Below are positions 467 through 48,096 of a stretch of 64,000 nt of DNA, one piece after another (within the stretch, counting starts at the first letter, position 1; each line of letters opens with the position of its first letter). Below the pieces are notes generated by a model. That model saw only the letters and a list, made by a program, of their open reading frames with translations, made no database searches and was not told the origin of the DNA. This stretch comes from Trichuris trichiura. Its lineage: Eukaryota; Nematoda; Enoplea; Trichinellida; Trichuridae. The DNA lies in the NCBI GenBank assembly GCA_037903355.1, contig JBAJFE010000023.1, positions 744,001 to 808,000 on the forward strand, given 5' to 3'. The position numbers and the translations under genes were made by a program.

Positions 467-502
467 TTTACGGAGTCTATGTCCCGTTAAAGTTATTCTC
501 CG

Positions 503-534
503 GAGCTTTCAAGCCACTCATGACCAGTCTTCAG
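503..534 (-). ncRNA. hammerhead ribozyme-like motif (left arm)
   Basis: On the minus strand: CTGAAGA core, a short stem II, then GAAAGCT followed by C at the predicted cleavage position. This is the type I core layout known from Penelope-like elements, with a palindromic AGCT as minimal helix III. Activity is inferred from sequence only. Confidence 0.5.
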
Positions 535-579
535 CGATCTTAAAATAAATTTCTATTATTTACATTTATTTTAAAACCG

Positions 580-611
580 CTGAAGACAGGTCACGAGTGG
601 CCCGAAAGTTC
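580..611 (+). ncRNA. hammerhead ribozyme-like motif (right arm)
   Basis: CTGAAGA at 580-586, stem II GGTC/GGCC with a six-base loop, GAAAGTT at 604-610, cleavage base C611. Helix I can form from CCG before the core and CGG after the cleavage site, with a second pairing TTTTAA/TTAAAA beyond an internal loop. Helix III is imperfect here (AGTT instead of AGCT), so activity may be lost. Confidence 0.55.
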
Positions 612-660
612 CGGAGAATTAAAAGTTTATTCTACCTTTAACGGGACATACACTCCGTAA

Positions 661-4860: not shown

Positions 4861-6547
4861 GCATACGGCAGTTCATTCAACTTTTCGCAAAGGCAGCTTC
4901 AAGCTGCCGCGCAATTCTCAACGATTGAAATCTATCAGTTTCCTACGTATCAATCGATCCCTACTACTCAGTGAGGCTTTGTTTGCAATGGAAGAGACGA
5001 GCTTAAGCGGGAAAAAGGTTTCCTTCGCTCACGAACATAATTTTAGACCGCAAAGAAGCGAAACGAGGATTATTAGGAACGAATAGAAAAATTAGAAGGA
5101 ATAACAATAATAAATACGCGAAAAAATGTAGCAGAGCTAAAACATTCAACGCATATTCTCATATAAGAACACTTCCGAACTTTGCTGGCTCTTACAAGTG
5201 ACGATTACTCGAGGAGACGTAAATGGAACGAAATATCTCACGCCGCGGACACTTGCAACTAAGTTGCACTGAAATTACGTCGAAACATAGTCGAAAAAAT
5301 AGGGAAGCATAAACTCTTACAAAAATTTTATACAATTTATCGTTATTTTATTATTTTACTTATCTTGTACTTGATTTCACTAAGACCATTACTGTATTTT
5401 CCCAGACTTCTAATTTACTTACAAATTCGTTTACTTATCCCTCCTGTTATATTATCTTATGCTATCTGTGCTCCTACTAATCATCTCGTTCTGCTTTTTG
5501 GGCGATTTAAAATTATTAATACTTTCTTGATAAAAAAAGTTCTTCCCGCTCCACTTCGCTTTGCTTAGACTTAAGGAGTTCTGAGTTAAGCTTCTATTAC
5601 TTGAAGATGGATTGCAGTTGGTCCGCTCGGTAAAAGAGTGGAAAAAATGAAAGGATGTGAACGGTAGTAAAGGAGTCTTTTTTTGCACGTATTAAGTAAC
5701 TCTTCTGTGAACCTGAAAATCTTTAATGTAGGCAGGAGAAACTTTAAACTCGCTTTAAGCGTTGCGGCAGAGCGAAACGCAATGGATCAGAAGAGCGTGC
5801 GCCGTTCACCTGAGCGGTGAGCGGCGCTCTTATCTCCCTATATATTGATTACGACTGAAGCGGGTGTTTTCCATAACCAACAATAACTGACAGTAAGTGA
5901 TGGTAAAGCTCACTAATTGGACTGACGTAAATATTGCAGGTGGAGCAGCATTGCAGTATTGGAATAAAAGCCGCGAATGCCCAACCAGCTGATCACCGAG
6001 TACATCAATGCCAACTTACGAAACTCGAACTTTCGGCCGATAACAATGACCAGAGAAGTTCAAAGACAGAGTGAAAAATTTAAAGCCAACACCGTACACA
6101 GCCATCTTCGTCAATGAAGCGAGGAAACAAAGAAAAGCTCAAGCGTTCAAACGTGACCAACAATCTCTGTCCCCGCGACGAAAGCCTAAGCCAGGAACCT
6201 GTACAATTTTTCCATAATAACTCCTTTTGAAGGCAATCACTCGCCAATAACCCAACGAGAACGAAACAGATTTCCAAAATAACGCAACAAAGAAAAACTG
6301 AAAGCCAAACAAACATAACTTAATTAGTACAAAATTATTGATTTGCGTGCCCATTATCAACTACTTTCTAATTTAACAATTCAGTGACGTATCGTTGTGC
6401 CTATAAGAAAACAAGAATGCTTTTTTTAAATTGAATAAAGAACGTTCCACCTTTTTGTCAAATGGTTGGCATACAACGCAATACAACGACTATGTTGACA
6501 TTCAACAACACTTAGACAAGCTGAAGAATATGCCAACTATTGTTACT
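4861..6547. other. intergenic; one imperfect hairpin, no gene recognised
   Basis: No convincing coding sequence. An imperfect hairpin at about 5788-5830 (arms AAGAGCG.. and ..CGCTCTT) resembles the hairpin in the 4.1-kb repeat in its GAGCGG/GTGAGC composition. Confidence 0.45.
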
Positions 6548-6605
6548 CATGGTTGTAAGGTCTTCTACGGCTTCTCCCGTTTTTCGTTGGGCTGTTATCT
6601 GTAAT

Positions 6606-6732
6606 TTTGAAAATGCGATGTTTTGGTACGGGACTGTATGTTTTCATAGTTCAGCGACTTTAATACTTTCTTCTTTTTCTTTTTTTGTGCTTACCAACGG
6701 GACACAGCTACCGTATTAAAGTCGCTGAACTA
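6606..6732. mobile_element. nested insertion with 13-bp target duplication
   Basis: The 13-mer TGTTATCTGTAAT occurs at 6593-6605 and again at 6733-6745, flanking 127 bp that is absent from the right terminal repeat of the host PLE. The insert contains a 22-bp inverted pair (6645-6666 and 6713-6734, the last two bases overlapping the duplication) and, reversed, the GGTACGGGA..ATGTTTTC tail of the foldback family seen at 0.7 and 48.0 kb. I infer insertion of a non-autonomous PLE fragment into an older PLE. Confidence 0.7.
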
Positions 6733-6834
6733 TGTTATCTGTAATTAAACTAAACAACTGCTCTACCAACGGATGGATGAGCCGTTATTAAGAAAATGTA
6801 CAGATATCAACGCACTCAACTTTTTTAACGTTCA

Positions 6835-6866
6835 AAGCTTTCGGAACGCTCTAGTTCCGTCGTCAG
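6835..6866 (-). ncRNA. hammerhead ribozyme-like motif, left PLE terminus
   Basis: Minus strand: CTGACGA, stem II GGAAC/GTTCC with a six-base loop, GAAAGCT, then T at the cleavage position. It is the mirror copy of the motif at 8901-8932. TCA before the core can pair with TGA after the cleavage site as helix I. Confidence 0.65.
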
Positions 6867-6913
6867 TGAGGTGGTGGAGGAGTTGTTATTCTCCGAATGG
6901 TATATAGGCACAC

Positions 6914-8826
6914 GTGACAATCGTCGATCGCCCATCGTCAACACCTAATCTATCCCACGAGGAGCAACGGGTCATAAAACAACTAAGCTCGCGAAAAGAC
7001 ATAATAATCAGCAAAGCAGATAAAGGTAACGTTGTGATTCACCTTAACAGAAATGACTATATACAGAAAATAAACATCCTCTTAGACAGTACAATATACC
7101 ACCCCAGACACGTGTAGAATTGAGGGCTTTATTGGAGGCTTTCGCGAGTGAAAAAAACGACCAACAGCTCGCCTACATAAGTAATTACATTTTCTTCTTA
7201 AACAATGTTAAATGCCCTGAACTATACGGACTCCCCAAGATCCACAAGGAAGGTATTCCGCTAAGACCAGTCGTTTCCAGCGTCAATAGTGTAACATCAA
7301 AGCTGTGCACTTATCTAAAAGACATTCTTCAACCGTAAACGGGTAAACGCAAATTCCGTGTCAAAAACTGCAAAGACTTCTGCACGGCGTTAAATCCAAT
7401 TACATTAACACCGAACAGCATTATGGTAAGTTATGATGTCAAAGACTTTTTCACGAGTATTCCCATAAACTACACAATTGACCTCTTAGAGAAACTTTTA
7501 AAACGTGACACCACGAGACCCCTAAAAACCAAACTAAACCTTTTTCACATAACAAAACTGATTGCCTTTTGCATGAAACAAGGGAATTACTTCAGATTCC
7601 AAGACAGGTTCTTCTTACAAACAGATGGTGCTCCTATGGGCAGTCCCCTTAACCCCATTCTAGCCGAAATCTTCATGGAACACTTCGAAGAAAAGGCCTT
7701 CGCTAGCATAGGTTCTGACAACGCGCCTATCTTTTTCAAACGTTGCGTAGACGACATTTTTGCCATTACCACCGCGGGCAAGGAGGGGACTTTCCTAAGC
7801 CACTTAAACAGTATCTTTCCCAATAATATACGGTTAACGATGGAAACAGAAGTAAATAACAAACTTCCTTTTTTTGACGTACTAGTGATAAAACAGGGCA
7901 ACCAAATAAGGACCTCCGTTTACAGAAAACCAACCCATTCCAACAGGTATCTGCATTTCTCTTCCCACCATCCTTTATCAGTCAAACGAGGTATTGTAAA
8001 AGGGAATGGTTGATCGGGCCCTAGCAATCTGTGACCCCGCATTTCTTCCTGCTGAATTAAAATACATCCTCCAAACTTTCACAGACAATGGGTACCCACA
8101 CTCTCTGGTTAAACACATCATCGCCGAATGCAGATGGCACTCAAATCCTTCCCCTAATGACGAAATAATAACCTCAATAACACTGATAATACTAATACCA
8201 TTGCGAATAATAACATTGACAACACTGGAATCACGAATAGTCGCCCCATTTTGTTTATCCCCTATTACAACGGCATCGGGGAACGAATCCTACGATTAAA
8301 CCGTTCCCTAGATTTTAAGGTTCGATTTACGACATCCAACAGTTTACGTTCAATGGTGAGGAGCGACAAGATCATAGTTCCCTTTGATAGGAGACCTGAC
8401 GTCGTCTATGAGATAAGATGCGGTTGCAACGCCTCCTACATAGGAGAAACGGGCAACACTTTATTTCACAGGTACGGCCAACACATGACCAACGTCGGCC
8501 GATACAAAGAGGCGATGCGAAGACTGACCGAACCCGATGGAGCAAACACAAATAATCCACGACGAGGCCGACCACAGAAGCTCAAACCAGAGAAGATTAT
8601 ACAAGAGACGATCAAAGCGTCGGTGGTCGTCGAGCATTCCTCTCAATGCTCTCTCGACCTACAACCCCGCATTATTTGTCGCGAGAGCCACTTTCATCGC
8701 CGCCGGGTTAAGGAAGCTCTTTACATCCGCCATAACCCTACGATCAACCGTGACATAGGACTAGAGATTAGCACAGCTTGGGAGCCACTTATAAGTAAAA
8801 CCAAGTGTTGCTCACTGCCGCGCTGA
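6914..8826 (+). pseudogene. Penelope-like reverse transcriptase and GIY-YIG endonuclease, broken
   Basis: Conserved blocks fall in several frames: an N-terminal block with KADKGNVV (6914-7117); a block with YGLPKIHK (7120-7338), ending in a TAA beyond which the same frame continues; the RT core with DGAPMGSPL and CVDDIFAI (7423-8013); a spacer (8006-8299); and a GIY-YIG block with YIGET (8251-8826), ending like other PLE endonucleases in a region with HNPTIN. At least one nonsense codon and several frameshifts separate them. The RT catalytic box reads CVDD where family members normally have YVDD. No ATG-initiated full-length protein can be made, so the copy is a relic. Confidence 0.88.
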
Positions 8827-8900
8827 CCTCGCCCCAATTTCTATTGTCACATGTGCCTATATAATACCATTCGGAGAATAACAACTCCTCCACCACCTCA

Positions 8901-8932
8901 CTGACGACGGAACTAGAGCGTTCCGAAAGCTT
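8901..8932 (+). ncRNA. hammerhead ribozyme-like motif, right PLE terminus
   Basis: CTGACGA at 8901-8907; stem II GGAAC (8909-8913) with GTTCC (8920-8924); GAAAGCT at 8925-8931; predicted cleavage after T8932. Helix I is available from TCA just before the core and TGA just after the cleavage site. There is one unpaired base between the core and stem II, seen in every copy in the window. Confidence 0.7.
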
Positions 8933-9119
8933 TGAACATTAAAAAGTTGAGTGCGTTGATATCTGTACTTTTTCTTAATAACGGCCCATCCATCCGTTGG
9001 TAGAGCAGTTGTTTTAGTTTAATTACAGATAACAGCACAACGAAAAACGGGAAAAGCCGTAGAAGACCTTACAACCATGAAAATACAGCCCGTTACAAAA
9101 CACCCCGTTTTCAAGAACT

Positions 9120-9900
9120 ATTGTTAGTCAATTATTCCATCAATATAAGTGGGACGCGTAGAGCAGATGGAATAAAGCTCGGATGAAATTAATGAATATA
9201 AGAGCTGTTCAAATTTTTAAGGGAAAGCAGCCTCAACATAATACGCATCGGCCATACACTGTGCAGGCAAGTCTTTCCGAACGAAAAGTTTAAATGCTGC
9301 ATAGCAAAACAACAACATTTCGGGATTGTTTTAATTGCATGCTATTTGCAAAATTCGAAGATCCAAGACAATGACGCTTATAGTCTGCATAAATAAATTA
9401 TTTCAATCGATCAACCTGCAAAGCCTATCAAAAATGCTTTGTTCATCACGGCACAGCGTAGGCGGTAACTTCTTCAGCTGTAATAACGAGTGGACGGCTT
9501 AAACAAAATTTACATTCACCCTACAGACCAATCGCTGACGTTTCGGCATTAACTAGCCACTTCGCATTAATTCGCAAGCCACACTATGGCGGTAGGCTTC
9601 GATTCTTGATAGGTTATTGCAGCAAAAACGAGTTCCCCCAACCGGTCAAGACGACGGGACATCCCGCCTTGTACAAAAAAATCATTCATCTCGCGCTCGC
9701 CTCTCTAGCTGACGGGAGAATTTAAAGTAACAAAACGCACAAGGAATGATTCTCAAGTACAATCAAATCGAAAACATTTTACCTGCCACCAATTCATTGC
9801 TGCTGTCCCGTAAAAATTGGATTCGCAGTAACGGACACTCAAGTTTGTAATGGCAAAGCCAGTATGCTTGTTTAATGAAGCGGAATCACGAAAATGAATG
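9120..9900. other. intergenic, no gene recognised
   Basis: No ORF with recognisable content on either strand and no clear repeat structure. Confidence 0.45.
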
Positions 9901-9903
9901 TTA

Positions 9904-10045
9904 GAGCTTTCGGGATCTCCGGACCTCATCTTCAGAAAAAGATAATAGTTGAAAATTGAGGTTTACTGCCTGTCATCTAGCGAGCGAAAACCCGCGGGAA
10001 GAACCGTACTTCGCTGAGGATGAGACCTGGGAATCCCGAAAGCTT
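9904..10045. repeat. PLE-related foldback with two hammerhead-like cores
   Basis: Left end: minus-strand GAAAGCT (9905-9911) to CTGAAGA (9929-9935). Right end: plus-strand CTGAGGA (10014-10020) to GAAAGCT (10038-10044). The arms are a divergent inverted pair. On the right, TCG before the core pairs with TGA after it (one wobble); on the left, helix I is degraded. This is the same head-to-head layout as at 467-660. Confidence 0.6.
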
Positions 10046-10854
10046 TGATGTTCATGTACCGTTTCATAATTCGACTTCATTAAACGCGATCGCCCTTATT
10101 CGAAAAATTCGTATATGTGGAAGACTAAAATGCTGACTATTGGAGAAGACAATAAAATCATATCGATCAGTTTATCCCTTTACGTACGTGAAAATCATTA
10201 CAGTACTATGCAAAAATTTAAAACTCATCAGTTTACAAAGATAAAGCGCATTTTAATAAAGGAGAAGAGCCCACGTCGCAATAAATAGCTACTCAACAAT
10301 TCTGGCTTATTCAATTCAATCAGCAACTAGCAAGAGAGCGAACTGACTGCAGTTTCTCCAACTACTTGCCCATCACCGTCCATTGGTTTACTTTGTGCTG
10401 TCATGTTTTGTTCTAGTATGCTAATGCTTAGGCTTAGGCTTAGGTATTAAGTGGGATGCCGACAGATCTTTTTCAGAAGAAAGGTATTGGACTCGCCAGA
10501 CTTTTCCGTTTATTTGTCAGTTAGGCCACCGCTGCCTATTGAGTCAATTTACGCTAGTATCTTTTGCCCTGAAAGTCAGGCTTAAACTTAACCGTAGGTT
10601 TATGATACTAGTTATTCACTCAGATAATTACGTAATTATTAAAATCTGCGCCAAAGCCTACGCAAAAGCATATCAGAGCAAAAGACAAACCGCGCAAACT
10701 GAATCAGTGCGCAGTGATTGGCAGATAATGAGAAACGTCAGAAAGGATTCGGTCAATCGTTTGCCTATCATCGCAACAGAATTAAGATCAACAAGAAGCA
10801 GAGAAACTACCATTCTGTCATGTAGACAGAGACAATTGAGAACTATTTTAATAT
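10046..10854. other. intergenic with a short TTAGGC run
   Basis: Three consecutive TTAGG(C/T) hexamers at about 10428-10445 match the nematode telomere repeat unit. A 133-codon open frame at 10539-10940 has no recognisable motif and runs into the repeat copy; it is not called. Confidence 0.5.
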
Positions 10855-43178: not shown

Positions 43179-43970
43179 ATGGACCCCTCACCCACACCCA
43201 ATCCGCACGTGATAGCAGCGGTCGCGGTCAAGCTTCCCACCTTCTGGCCACACAACGCCAAGCTGTGGTTTGCGCAGGCGGAAGCGCAGTTCGTTCTTGG
43301 CCGCATCACCGCCTCCTCGACGAAATTTTATCATACCATAGCCTCGCTGAACGAGACCGTGACAGCAGAGGTAGAGGACCTCTTGGAACCTCAAGGCGAC
43401 CACCCGTACGAACACTTGAAGCAGAAGCTGTTGGAAAGATTTGCCGCTACGGAAGAACAATGTTTCCGCACTCTTGCAGATGACTCACCGCTTGGCGATC
43501 GCCGCCCGACGCAGTTGCTCCGCGAAATGCGCCACGCAGCTGCAGGCGTCGTTGACGTTGACAGCTCATTCTTTCGGCAGCTGTTTCTGCATCGATTGCC
43601 ACCTAACGTCCAGCTTGTGCTTAAGGCGTTCCGCACAGCTACTATCGACGAGTTGGCCCGTGCGGCTGATGATATTCTTCCCATGGAGAACCCCGTAAAC
43701 ATCGTCACAGCTACGAACGCGACTGTCGATTCACCGACGCTACAAGAGCTGCGAGACGAAATACAGGACCTTCGACAGCAGTTGCGCTGGCTCACAGTCG
43801 ATCCTTCCCGATCCCGCCGCGAGCGCGCCGGGCCCTCCAGCTCATCGCCATCACAGCGCGCCGCTCGTCGATCATCATTTTCATCGCCCCCCACTGTCTG
43901 CTACTTTCATCGCAAATTTGGCCAACGTGCTCGTCGCTGCCGCCCGCCCTGCTCTTTTTCGGGAAACTAA
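43179..43970 (+). CDS. gag: Gag of the LTR retrotransposon
   Basis: 263 residues from the first ATG, 19 bp after the 5' LTR. The capsid-like N-terminal part ([30 protein letters not shown]) matches Ty3-type Gag of CsRn1-like elements. The C-terminus has a variant zinc knuckle, C-x3-H-x3-G-x5-C-x3-C ([18 protein letters not shown]), instead of the usual CCHC. The frame ends at TAA 43968-43970, directly after a slippery heptamer. Gag forms the intracellular particle that packages the element RNA. Confidence 0.93.
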
Positions 43971-44004
43971 CTCGCCGGACCCTCCAGGCGGTAGAGAGTC
44001 CGGC
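43961..44004 (+). promoter_or_regulatory. programmed -1 frameshift signal at the gag-pol junction
   Basis: The heptamer G GGA AAC (43961-43967) is in the X XXY YYZ register of the gag frame. A 6-nt spacer follows (43968-43973, containing the gag stop). A perfect 7-bp stem GCCGGAC (43974-43980) / GTCCGGC (43998-44004) closes a 17-nt loop. After a -1 slip the reading frame is open into protease. The function is inferred, but all three parts match the known model. Confidence 0.8.
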
Positions 44005-47000
44005 ATCTTCATACAACCGCCAACTTTTTTTCATTCAAGACAAACGATCAAAGATAAAATTTTTGGTCGACACTGGATCGCAAGTCAGCGTATTACCCAT
44101 GCAGTCTCGACTATTTTATCAACAACGACAACCCGATCCAACGACACTACTCGCCGCTAATGGTACCCGCGTGCCGACATTTGGTACCTGTAAGCTTATC
44201 GTTGATTTCGGCATGGGTTCCCCGTTCAAATGGTCTTTTCTCATTGCTAGTGTCCGTTACCCAATCCTGGGTGCTGATTTCTTCCGCCATTTCAATCTCC
44301 TCGTCGACGTCAAACGCAAACAGCTCATCAATGCCAAAACGTACGCTCATATAACATGCACGCCACTGCAGGATAATCTTATCGGCTATACAGGCGCTCT
44401 TCGGCGAGCAGACAGTCGCGCACACATGATTTTAGCCCGCTTCCCACAACTCACTTCGTGCACAACTGCTGCTGAGCCGGTTCGTCATACAGTGCAGCAT
44501 CGTATTATCACTTTTGGACCGCCCGTTTTCAGCCGTCCACGACGGTTGCCACCACAGAAGTTACGAGCTGCCAAACAAGAATTCGATACTATGCTACGGT
44601 TAGGGATCATTCGACCCTCCAGCAGTAGCTGGGCGTCGCCGCTCCATATGGTACCCAAGAAACAGCCAGATACTTGGCGCCCTTGCGGCGATTATCGAAA
44701 GCTGAATAACGTCACAAAACCAGACAGGTATCCAATACCGAATCTCAATGATTTCGCCTCACAGTTGCACGGCAGATCTATATTTTCGAAACTCGACTTG
44801 GTCCGCGCGTACCAACAGATTCCCGTTCATCATAGAGACGTACCTAAGACAGCAATAACGACACCTTTCGGTTTGTACGAGTACCTCCGCATGCCCTTCG
44901 GTTTGCGAAATGCCGCTCAAACTTTTCAAAGGTTCATGGACGAAGTCACACGAGGACTTGACTTCTGTTTCGTTTACTTAGATGATATACTCGTGGCCAG
45001 CAAAACGACACGAGAGCACGACGCGCATTTGGAGACACTTTTTCGTCGTTTAGCCCAGTACGGGGTTAAGCTCAACCCCGACAAATGCCTCTTCCACGTA
45101 TCAAGCCTGGCCTTCCTCGGTTTTCAGTTGTCACCTACCGGTATCCGTCCACTTCAGGAAAAAGTAGACGTCATCCAGCGTTTCCCCCCTCCGACTAACA
45201 TGAAGGAACTGCGACGTTTCCTCGGGTGTATAAACTTTTACCGTCGATTTATTCCTAATGCCGCTGCTTTGTTAGCCCCTTTGGAACGACTGATTTCGTC
45301 ACAACCTGACAAACAAACAATTCACTTGTCATCTGAAGACCGTCATGCCTTCGAACGCGTCAAGCAAGCTTTGGCAGATGCAGTTCTGCTGACGCATCCG
45401 GCTGATGGCGCCCCGCTAGCATTGGTAGTCGACGCCAGCGATAATGCCGCAGGTGCGGTTCTCCAACAAAAGGTGCACGGCCAATGGACCCCGCTGTCAT
45501 TCTTTTCCCGACGTTTCCAACAACGGGAGACACGGTACAGCGCCTTTGGCCGAGAGCTTCTGGCTGTCTATTCAGCGATCCGGCACTTTCGTTACCTTTT
45601 AGAAGGGCGCCAGTTTACCGTATGGACGGATCACAAGCCGCTAGTGCAAGCGTTAAAGCGCGGTGCCGGAATGCATTGTTCACGTGAGGTCAGGCAACTA
45701 GATTACATTACCTCTTTCACCAGTGACGTCAGGCATATCAAAGGCAAAAATAACGCGGTGGCCGATGCTTTGTCCAGAGTGTCAGTCCATGCATTGTCCT
45801 CTATCCTTGACTCCGCCGACCTTAAGGTTTTAGCCGCAGAACAGGTGGGTGATGCAGAGCTGCAACAACTGCAAAACAGCTCTACGTTGCGCATGACCCA
45901 GGTTGAAGTTCCGCATTTGAATGTCACGCTGTGGTGTGATTTGTCCCACGACCGGGTTCGCCCATTTGTACCAGCATCGTTGCGTCGAAAGATTTTCTCC
46001 ACGTTACATTCGCCATCTCACCCGGGTATTCGAGCGACTCGCCGTTTAATTACGCAACATTACATTTGGCCTGCGATGAATCGCGACATAGCTCACATGG
46101 TAAGAAGTTGCGACATGTGTCAGCGTATAAAAATTCAGCGTCACACAAAGGCGCCGCCAACTGTTTTCAACGTACCTGATCGCCGGTTCGACCACGTACA
46201 TTTAGACCTCGTTGGACCGTTACCGCAATGCCGCGGATGTTCATATCTCGTTACCATGGTCGATCGTTTCACGCGGTGGCCTGAGGTTGTTCCGATAAAG
46301 GACGCGACTGCCGTCACTGTTGCCCGAGCCTTCTTGTCTACTTGGATCTCCAGGTTTGGCGTTCCCGCCGTTGTCACCACGGATCAAGGCAAACAGTTCC
46401 AGAGCTCGTTTTGGCACGAACTGACGTCCTTGCTGGGCGTAAAATTGGCACCAACTACGGCATACCACCCTCAATCGAATGGGCTCGTTGAGAGGTTGCA
46501 CCGCCAGTTGAAATGCGCGTTAACGGCTCACGTGCAAGCCTCCCGCCCCTGGGTAGATGCCTTACCTCTGGTGTTGCTCGGACTCCGCACGGCTGTTAAA
46601 GAAGACTTGCGGCATGCGCCGGCTGAGTTAGTCTTTGGTTCCCCATTACGACTCCCCGGCGTTTTCTTCAGTCAAATATCGGCCCGCAGTAATGTAGCGG
46701 AACACAGCGACGAGCTACAACTGTTTTTCGACTCCATCCGACCGCCCCCCACGCGACGACAGCGAAGTCATGGATGGTTCGTGCCTAAGGAGTTGCATGA
46801 CTGTACGCACGTTTTCCTGCGTCACGACGCCCCGCGTCCACCATTGTCACCAACCTTTGACGGACCGTACAGGGTGACGGCGAGAACGGCGAAGACGGTT
46901 ACGATCATGCAAAACGGCAAGCTAAAAACCGTCTCCATCGACAGGGTCAAGCCCGCCTTCATTGACCCACACTACGAGGCGCCGAAGCGGCAGGTTCGTT

Positions 47001-47029
47001 TCGCTTCTACAGTCGAATTCATCCGGTGA
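43964..47029 (+). CDS. pol: Pol polyprotein (protease, RT, RNase H, integrase), -1 frame
   Basis: Continues Gag by a -1 shift; there is no suitable ATG near its start. In order: aspartic protease with DTG at 44069-44077 ([11 protein letters not shown]); reverse transcriptase with YLDD at 44975-44986 and [15 protein letters not shown]; RNase H ([13 protein letters not shown]); integrase with the HHCC finger ([15 protein letters not shown]) and DDE residues near 46204, 46382 and 46490; and a C-terminal GPY-type segment. About 1020 codons run without a stop. The catalytic residues I checked (DTG, YLDD, DDE) are present, so the copy could be autonomous. No chromodomain is seen. Confidence 0.95.
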
Positions 47030-47182: not shown

Positions 47183-47233
47183 TAATAATAATACTTGAAC
47201 ACAGGGTGCTTCGTAACGGGATGGGATTTCATA
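47183..47233. repeat. short (AAT)n and PLE tail
   Basis: A short AAT tract (47183-47194), then about 39 bp that match, reversed, the tail following other PLE termini (CGTAACGGGATGGGATTTCAT). Confidence 0.6.
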
Positions 47234-47576
47234 GTGTATGGTCTTCTACGGCTTTTCCCGTTTACCTGTTGTGCTTGTATCTGTAAATTAGACGAAACAA
47301 CTGCTCTACCAACGGATGGATGAGCCGTTATTAAGAAAAAGTACAGATATCAATACACTCAACTTTTTAATGTTCAAAGCTTTCGGAACTCCACCACTTC
47401 ATTGACGACGGAACTAGAGCGATCCGAAAGCTTTGAACATTAAAAAGTTGAGTGTATTGATATCTGTACATTTTCTTAATAACGGCTCATCCATCCGTTG
47501 GTAGAGCAGTTGTTTTAGTTTAATTACAGATAACAGCACAACGAAAAAACGGGAAAAGCCGTAGAAGACCATACAC
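47234..47576. repeat. PLE-derived foldback, same family as the 6.5-kb element
   Basis: A near-perfect palindrome: left arm 47234-47385, right arm about 47418-47576, both matching the terminal repeats of the PLE at 6548-9079 (CTACCAACGGATGGATGAG, ACAGATATCAA, TTCAAAGCTTTCGG). The whole coding region is absent. The right arm keeps a hammerhead-like core at 47402-47431, but its first base is T (TTGACGA) and one stem II base is changed, so it is probably inactive. The left arm has lost most of its core. Confidence 0.85.

Positions 47577-47633
<57 letters not shown>
47577..47633. repeat. (AAT)n microsatellite
   Basis: Uninterrupted AAT tract between two foldback elements. Confidence 0.95.
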
Positions 47634-47689
47634 TTCGAAAGACTGGGTGTCTTTTAACAGGCTTTGGTTGTTTCATAGTTGTTCCTCTG

Positions 47690-48096
47690 GTTCACGGGTT
47701 TGGCCTGTTGGATGTATCTGTAAGTAGACTTCAAAATGCCCTACCAACGAATGGATGAGCAAATTGTTAGAGAAAATACAGAATTTGTAATTTCTCTAAC
47801 AATTTGCTCATCCATTCGTTGGTTTTCAAAGTGCAAAAGTTTTATTACGGAATTATTCCCGTTTAATGTGTTAAATAACTCCGGAGCTTTCAGGTCGACC
47901 GAGACCCGTCTTCAGCGGTTGTGAGTTATCCGGAGTTATTTAACACATTAAACGGGAATAATTCCGTAATAAAACTTTTGCACTATGAAAACATACGCTC
48001 CCGTACCAAGAAACCACATTTTCAAATCCATTCATTGGTAGGGCATTTTGAAGTCTACTTACAGATACATCCAACAGGCCAGACCCGTCAACCAGA
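47690..48096. repeat. PLE-derived foldback with nested palindromes
   Basis: Three nested inverted repeats: outer arms of about 68 bp (47690-47757, 48028-48096, CTGGTT..GGATGTATCTG); a palindrome of about 31 bp at about 47744-47823 (CAACGAATGGATGAGC..); and a 54-bp perfect pair at 47831-47884 and 47930-47983 with a hammerhead-like core in its loop. It is related to the element at 467-660. Confidence 0.85.
47884..47915 (-). ncRNA. hammerhead ribozyme-like motif
   Basis: Minus strand: CTGAAGA (47915-47909), stem II GGGTC/GACCT, GAAAGCT (47891-47885), cleavage base C at 47884. Helix I is the best in the window: CCG/CGG at the core, then an internal loop and ATAACT/AGTTAT. These bases differ from other copies while pairing is kept. 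Confidence 0.7.

Follow-up and report, generated by a model that had tools for sequence, protein, structure and literature searches.

In the hammerhead ribozymes of Penelope-like elements (PLEs), helix III is usually ACGT. Minimal type I hammerheads of PLEs were reportedly the subject of studies by Cervera & De la Pena in 2014 and by Lunse et al. in 2017. According to the available passages of more recent papers, type I motifs, minimal or canonical, number more than 6,000 in Acropora millepora (PMC7229834), and a review suggests that the minimal PLE hammerheads are active as dimers and describes what PLE hammerheads do as a mystery (PMC7761336). The Penelope of Adineta vaga is described as having inverted pLTRs arranged head to head, a tail on one end and TSDs of 8–10 bp (PMC3846280). 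In vitro, both strands are cut and extended by a PLE protein, which starts reverse transcription at two adjacent RNA sites that bound the tail; the same work, as excerpted, reports that a PLE hammerhead cuts only with its protein (PMC11167929). An extra nucleotide in the catalytic core has been described for the plus-strand hammerhead of Chrysanthemum chlorotic mottle viroid (PMC3705267, PMC11014351).

The window (the whole 64,000-nt stretch of DNA analysed here) contains an element with two hammerhead motifs in inverted arms (Table 1). A preliminary description made from the sequence had named the host a PLE, and this identification is supported by an RT recognised by Pfam, by Trichuris relatives named for RT and GIY-YIG, and by the pLTRs, tail and TSD. 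The best ten relatives of the RT part are all Trichuris RT proteins, the RT and endonuclease proteins among the relatives come from T. suis, T. muris and T. trichiura, and the GIY-YIG-like part has many close Trichuris relatives named GIY-YIG domain-containing, while itself returning nothing in Pfam, NCBIfam and PDB sequence searches. A GKAP protein had a single hit, from T. trichiura, at 93% identity, and on such protein relatives we call the genome Trichuris-like. Stops and frame changes lie between the two parts; from the layout of the whole element we infer that the RT belongs to the PLE clade. The insert nested in the left arm has 22-nt inverted ends and a tail-like end (identical in 31 of 42 columns when aligned) and is bounded by a 14-bp duplication (6593-6606 and 6733-6746). 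Elsewhere in the window, a long open frame of 1118 aa at 43673-47029 (+) resembles, by eye, the polyprotein of a Gypsy-type LTR retrotransposon.

Table 1: Coordinates of the element and its two hammerheads within the window. Hammerhead position numbers (C3, A9, G12, A15.1, U16.1, H17) were assigned here following what we take to be the standard numbering.
Feature	Position	Strand	Basis or remark
TSD AACTATTGTTA, left	6535-6545		11 bp
Left inverted pLTR	6547-6921	-	about 8843-9080 in reverse complement; contains nested insert
Nested insert	6607-6732	-	probably another PLE family
Hammerhead, second copy in inverted arm	6832-6869	-	identical 32-nt core
Second copy, extra C	6859	-	
Second copy, predicted cut	between 6835 and 6834	-	
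Broken coding region, apparently 5'-truncated	6922-8826	+	
RT part	7339-8013	+	Pfam RVT_1, just above cut-off
GIY-YIG-like part	8161-8826	+	names of relatives
Right pLTR, following coding region, with 3' UTR, hammerhead and 5' UTR-like part as far as ATG at 9077	8827-9076	+	start codon assigned from sequence
Hammerhead, sense copy	8898-8935	+	direct reading, motif comparison, alignment, model R1
Sense copy, stem I (TCA/TGA)	8898-8900 with 8933-8935	+	
Sense copy, C3-A9 = CTGACGA	8901-8907	+	
Sense copy, extra C (pyrimidine between A9 and helix II)	8908	+	motif comparison, pattern counts, folding
Sense copy, helix II GGAAC/GTTCC	8909-8913 with 8920-8924	+	loop 8914-8919
Sense copy, G12-A14	8925-8927	+	
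Sense copy, helix III, A15.1-U16.1 = AGCT	8928-8931	+	
Sense copy, H17 = U	8932	+	predicted cut 8932/8933
Tail, 39 nt, right end only	9077-9115	+	reads MKIQPVTKHPVFK; taken as first 13 ORF codons from ATG 9077
TSD AACTATTGTTA, right	9116-9126		11 bp

The motif, CTGACGA-C-GGAAC..GTTCC-GAAAGCTT, had been placed at 8901-8932 (+) and 6835-6866 (-), and both letters and coordinates are exact: direct reading gives the same 32-nt core, CTGACGACGGAACTAGAGCGTTCCGAAAGCTT, from 8901 to 8932 on the plus strand and from 6866 to 6835 on the minus strand. Both cores sit in inverted arms (6822-6903/8864-8945, 99% complementary, plus adjoining arm pieces). The core CUGANGA ... GAA of a type I hammerhead is present, and the earlier reading of helix III as a four-nucleotide palindrome, AGCT instead of ACGT, is borne out by the hammerhead anatomy, with which the cut predicted after 8932 also agrees. 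That reading had, however, missed an extra nucleotide, a C after CTGACGA and before GGAAC, so that helix II in the window copy is not directly adjacent to A9.

The motif is no chance occurrence. In the window, CTGANGA-N{4,30}-GAAA has 16 matches (two of which overlap) against 4.1 expected, a number reached by none of 100 shuffles. Across the genome searched (72.7 Mb in 62 contigs, within which the window lies), CTGANGA-N{10,24}-GAAAGCT was matched 4,923 times and its reversed-pattern control 42 times; the corresponding figures for the ACGT form were 570 and 102. Strict patterns, which require a helix II starting with GG and leave other helices outside the counts, gave 4,587 matches with an inserted pyrimidine (reversed control 5), 102 with an inserted purine (reversed control 5) and 50 without insertion (control 1), 37 of these last, counted by eye, being inserted-G rows of the purine set. 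Pyrimidines accordingly outnumber purines at the inserted base by about 45:1 genome-wide, purine variants making up 2.2%. Helix III is AGCT in 3,639 of the inserted-pyrimidine matches (control 0), ACGT in 406 (control 0) and neither in 542 of the 4,587. Position 17 is G in 64 of the 3,639 AGCT matches genome-wide, and inspection by eye showed 26 of those 64 to be repeats of a single sequence that has no clear helix II.

From the window and loci L001–L054 we collected 95 distinct CTGANGA..GAAA candidates, 57 with at least four contiguous helix II pairs and 38 without such a helix. Helix II starts one base past A9 in all 57 stem-bearing motifs, the inserted base being C in 49 and T in 8; the three positions of stem I are paired in 52, 54 and 56 of them, and H17 is C in 25, U in 20, A in 12 and G in none. 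A further set, which was not stem-selected and overlaps the first, comprised the first 100 matches to CTGANGA-N{10,24}-GAAAGCT. Here at least four of the five helix II pairs were found at offset 1 in 92 matches, at offset 0 in 4 and at offset 2 in 12, against a shuffle level of 9–10%, and the base inserted in the 92 offset-1 rows was C in 84, T in 6 and A in 2, the two A rows having just four of the five pairs.

In an alignment of 42 non-redundant motifs, 96.7% of cells were paired versus 81.2% when shuffled, with 58 double changes where shuffles gave 15.1; when the partner was shifted by one, two or three columns, 19–57% remained paired. Because helix II, but neither stem I nor helix III, had been a criterion for choosing these rows, the independent evidence lies in stem I, H17 and helix III. 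Stem I has double changes at all three pairs and 92.9% of its cells paired, while pair 15.2/16.2 of helix III is GC in 36 rows, CG in 5 and something else in 1. A ribozyme fold is thereby supported on two counts, by covariation and by how seldom position 17 is G. On these sequence comparisons we would class the motif as a hammerhead variant and not a standard member, since the extra pyrimidine stands on the A9 side in every stem-bearing motif and there is precedent for an extra core nucleotide in a viroid hammerhead. The viroid's extra nucleotide presumably lies, like the one here, between A9 and helix II. We take the motif to be a PLE-type minimal type I hammerhead whose core departs from the consensus by one nearly fixed base, a variant that we regard as new only provisionally. 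As a separate observation, 35 of the 57 distinct motifs have ACGG..CCGT, possibly a small hairpin, within 120 nt past the core, and in 15 of the 57 AATAAA follows close behind it.

Scoring with the standard hammerhead covariance model, the check proposed in the preliminary description, fails. Rfam reported no family at gathering score for the window and no hammerhead at E ≤ 10 for 6500-10300, and RF00163 had no match genome-wide—a weak negative, as none of the 14 control genomes gave one either. This silence despite thousands of motifs may be due to the extra base and to the lack of a loop on helix III. Sub-threshold Rfam matches near the element (MIR781, snoR11 and others) lay below gathering scores and were rejected; the MIR781 match corresponds to a decayed head-to-head (inverted) hammerhead pair at 9896-10054. 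Our own model, R1, was built from the 42 motifs, three of them from the window. It scored 58.1 bits at 8893-8940 (+), itself a training row, and 57.7 bits at 6827-6874 (-), nearly identical to that row; with E up to 1 it returned ten full-length matches and one partial match in the window. Another hammerhead family is represented by a head-to-head pair at 495-542 (-) and 572-619 (+), with R1 scores of 41.1 and 46.5 bits, and a hammerhead at 47876-47923 (-) is flanked beyond stem I by a perfect 31-nt inverted repeat (47854-47884 and 47930-47960).

That a ribozyme lies at both inverted ends, as first described, is true of this copy and is no fixed design of its family. End points were compared at 13 distinct places of the family, window copy included. 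The outer end of the inverted arm falls at 9077/9078 in all eight other copies in which the arm was seen, and the right end at 9114-9118 in nine of the 12 other copies, the remaining three ending, by BLAST, at 9081, 9083 and 9094. A TSD of about 8–11 bp was found in eight of the nine insertions examined (L007 lacks one). The inner ends of the nine inverted arms are variable (8843, 8860, 8888, 8906, 8924, 8987, 9024, 9043 and 9044), and for this reason just three of the nine arms hold the whole ribozyme core. We sought a signature of in vivo cleavage in these nine inner ends and found no clustering at the predicted cut at 8932, so cleaved RNA left no visible trace there. The arm count does not include one short copy (47183-47575; BLAST ends 9073 and 9126, inner ends 8888 and 8920), a head-to-head copy of the same family with a changed C3, adjoining a related stretch at 47616-47782. 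Same-family neighbours on opposite strands less than 3.5 kb apart, counted in the window and loci by our own similarity rule, run minus-then-plus in 16 rows and plus-then-minus in 1, or 13 versus 1 once overlapping loci are removed.

The inverted arrangement is thus ordinary for PLEs, the inverted arm being a pLTR copy of variable length, and the presence of ribozymes at both ends seems to be incidental to how the element inserts. The two outer end sites, with the 39-nt tail between them, agree with the in vitro finding of two adjacent start sites on either side of the tail (PMC11167929). The element's RT would be primed on both cut target strands, once from each internal start site (near 9115 and near 9077), and such dual-strand priming would give a head-to-head insert with a TSD and a second, inverted hammerhead. 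The available part of the in vitro study reports no difference in start site between strands, and the asymmetry seen here is not predicted by it (PMC11167929).

Taken together, we consider it very probable that the window holds two PLE-type minimal type I hammerheads in the pLTR of a PLE family of a Trichuris-like nematode, that they carry an extra pyrimidine, that cleavage is to be expected in tandem or dimeric RNA, and that the inverted copy arose by dual-strand priming. Sequence, covariation, H17 bias, end points and TSDs are what we observed; from these we infer cleavage, dimerisation and dual-strand priming. In this design stem I has 3 bp and helix II 5 bp, while helix III is a palindrome with no loop, AGCT or, in one group, ACGT. 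Such a helix III could pair only with a second copy, and cleavage after H17 would therefore be expected in tandem or dimeric RNA; the AGCT/ACGT swap would amount to natural covariation for dimer pairing. The expectation that each strand would carry one cleaving and one antisense copy is formally right, but in a transcript of both arms the two would pair with each other almost throughout (-322.9 kcal/mol when folded with an artificial linker), and the window copy is thus unlikely to cleave from such a transcript. In the unconstrained minimum-energy fold of 8864-8962 with natural flanks, helix II forms and stem I is absent. This absence weighs against the reading we prefer, as do the Rfam silence, the folding of the extra C onto G12 described below, the 38 candidates lacking helix II, the inner ends that do not cluster at the cut, the three stray right ends and the missing TSD of L007. 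Activity is more likely in tandem copies or dimers.

Among the alternatives, the one that fares best, though we judge it rather unlikely, is that these are fossil ribozymes, active in ancestral PLEs and carried as inert passengers by the copies seen here, that of the window included. The broken ORF of the window copy and its two arms, which would anneal, fit this account, as does widespread decay (the 38 of 95 candidates that lack helix II). However, several families keep compensated stems and an H17 that is not G, and the 40 best-scoring copies of the family's pLTR are 94–100% identical to the window pLTR, a combination that argues for constraint until fairly recent mobilisation.

The inserted base invites a second alternative. 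When the motifs were folded alone under a nearest-neighbour model, the inserted C paired with G12 at a probability of 0.97–1.00 in 14 C-type motifs (two of which share a core) and the inserted U at 0.56 in the one U-type motif. A C paired with G12 would disable the core; the energy model takes no account of non-canonical pairing in a real core, which makes the folding result a lead only. We regard as doubtful the idea of a built-in brake, in which the pyrimidine would pair with G12, make helix II one pair longer and block the ribozyme until it is opened by the PLE protein or by a second copy. Such a brake would accommodate the preference for pyrimidines in the 57 of 57 stem-bearing motifs, in 90 of the 92 offset-1 rows and genome-wide. 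It would also suit the published passages describing the Anolis PLE hammerhead as inactive without protein (PMC11167929) and the extra core nucleotide of the viroid hammerhead as going with weak cleavage, its deletion raising cleavage (PMC11014351). Yet pyrimidine over purine could reflect common ancestry and transition bias rather than selection, and the purine variants resemble ordinary decay, being scattered mutants that form no family. Slightly more speculative still is the proposal that the PLE hammerheads of this lineage are protein-gated in thousands of copies: a fixed inserted pyrimidine would pair with G12, the general base, and keep the ribozyme inactive, with release coming from the element's own protein or from a second copy; a near-fixed pyrimidine facing G12 would then offer a one-nucleotide handle on why a PLE hammerhead needs protein.

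A hairpin kept for some non-cleavage role, such as PLE protein binding or priming, is improbable: although the available text on Anolis describes the ribozyme as dispensable for insertion in vitro (PMC11167929), protein binding alone leaves unexplained both the rarity of G at position 17 and the G-C to C-G swap in helix III.

Scans of viral contigs with hammerhead patterns yielded 52 and 9 stretches, in which tblastn gave no match at E ≤ 0.01 when queried with the RT piece, the GIY-YIG piece and as many as four relatives. All five helix II pairs are present in one of the 52 (L073), and 31 of the 52 share one recurrent flank and sequence type; among the nine, all five pairs are present in six (L107, L109, L110, L111, L113 and L114). 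These six resemble hammerheads and end in GAAACGTC; the inserted bases are T, C, T, T, G and T, respectively, and tblastn found no PLE protein at these loci.

PLE-type minimal hammerheads with an extra pyrimidine, the reading we prefer, differ from other PLE hammerheads in that helix III is mostly AGCT here and usually ACGT there. The viroid's extra base is an A; here it is a pyrimidine, in a retroelement. Direct tandem hammerhead repeats with periods of 218 nt and 475 nt (L020/L021; G000 C1:2085522, 2085997 and 2086472) resemble metazoan retrozyme arrays. Among the papers listed for Trichuris or nematodes together with hammerhead or Penelope, none concerned such motifs. With the minimal type I hammerheads of PLEs, as portrayed in passages of citing papers, the motifs here share their location in the pLTR, a minimal or absent helix III and possible cleavage as dimers (PMC6155905, PMC7761336, PMC7229834), and their number is large, as in Acropora millepora (PMC7229834). 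Judged from such citing papers of the 2014 and 2017 studies, the near-universal inserted pyrimidine is provisionally novel among PLE hammerheads. The Penelope of A. vaga, in the text available, has the same head-to-head pLTRs, one-end tail, TSD and palindromic junctions (PMC3846280); the main text of that paper mentions ribozymes nowhere, whereas here a hammerhead lies in the pLTR. In Anolis Poseidon (PAc), as described in the accessible passages, a PLE hammerhead likewise lies near the tail and start codon, perhaps with an equal 26-nt spacing from A9 to the cut, but the cut is 26 bp downstream of the ATG in PAc and is predicted about 145 nt upstream of it here (PMC11167929).
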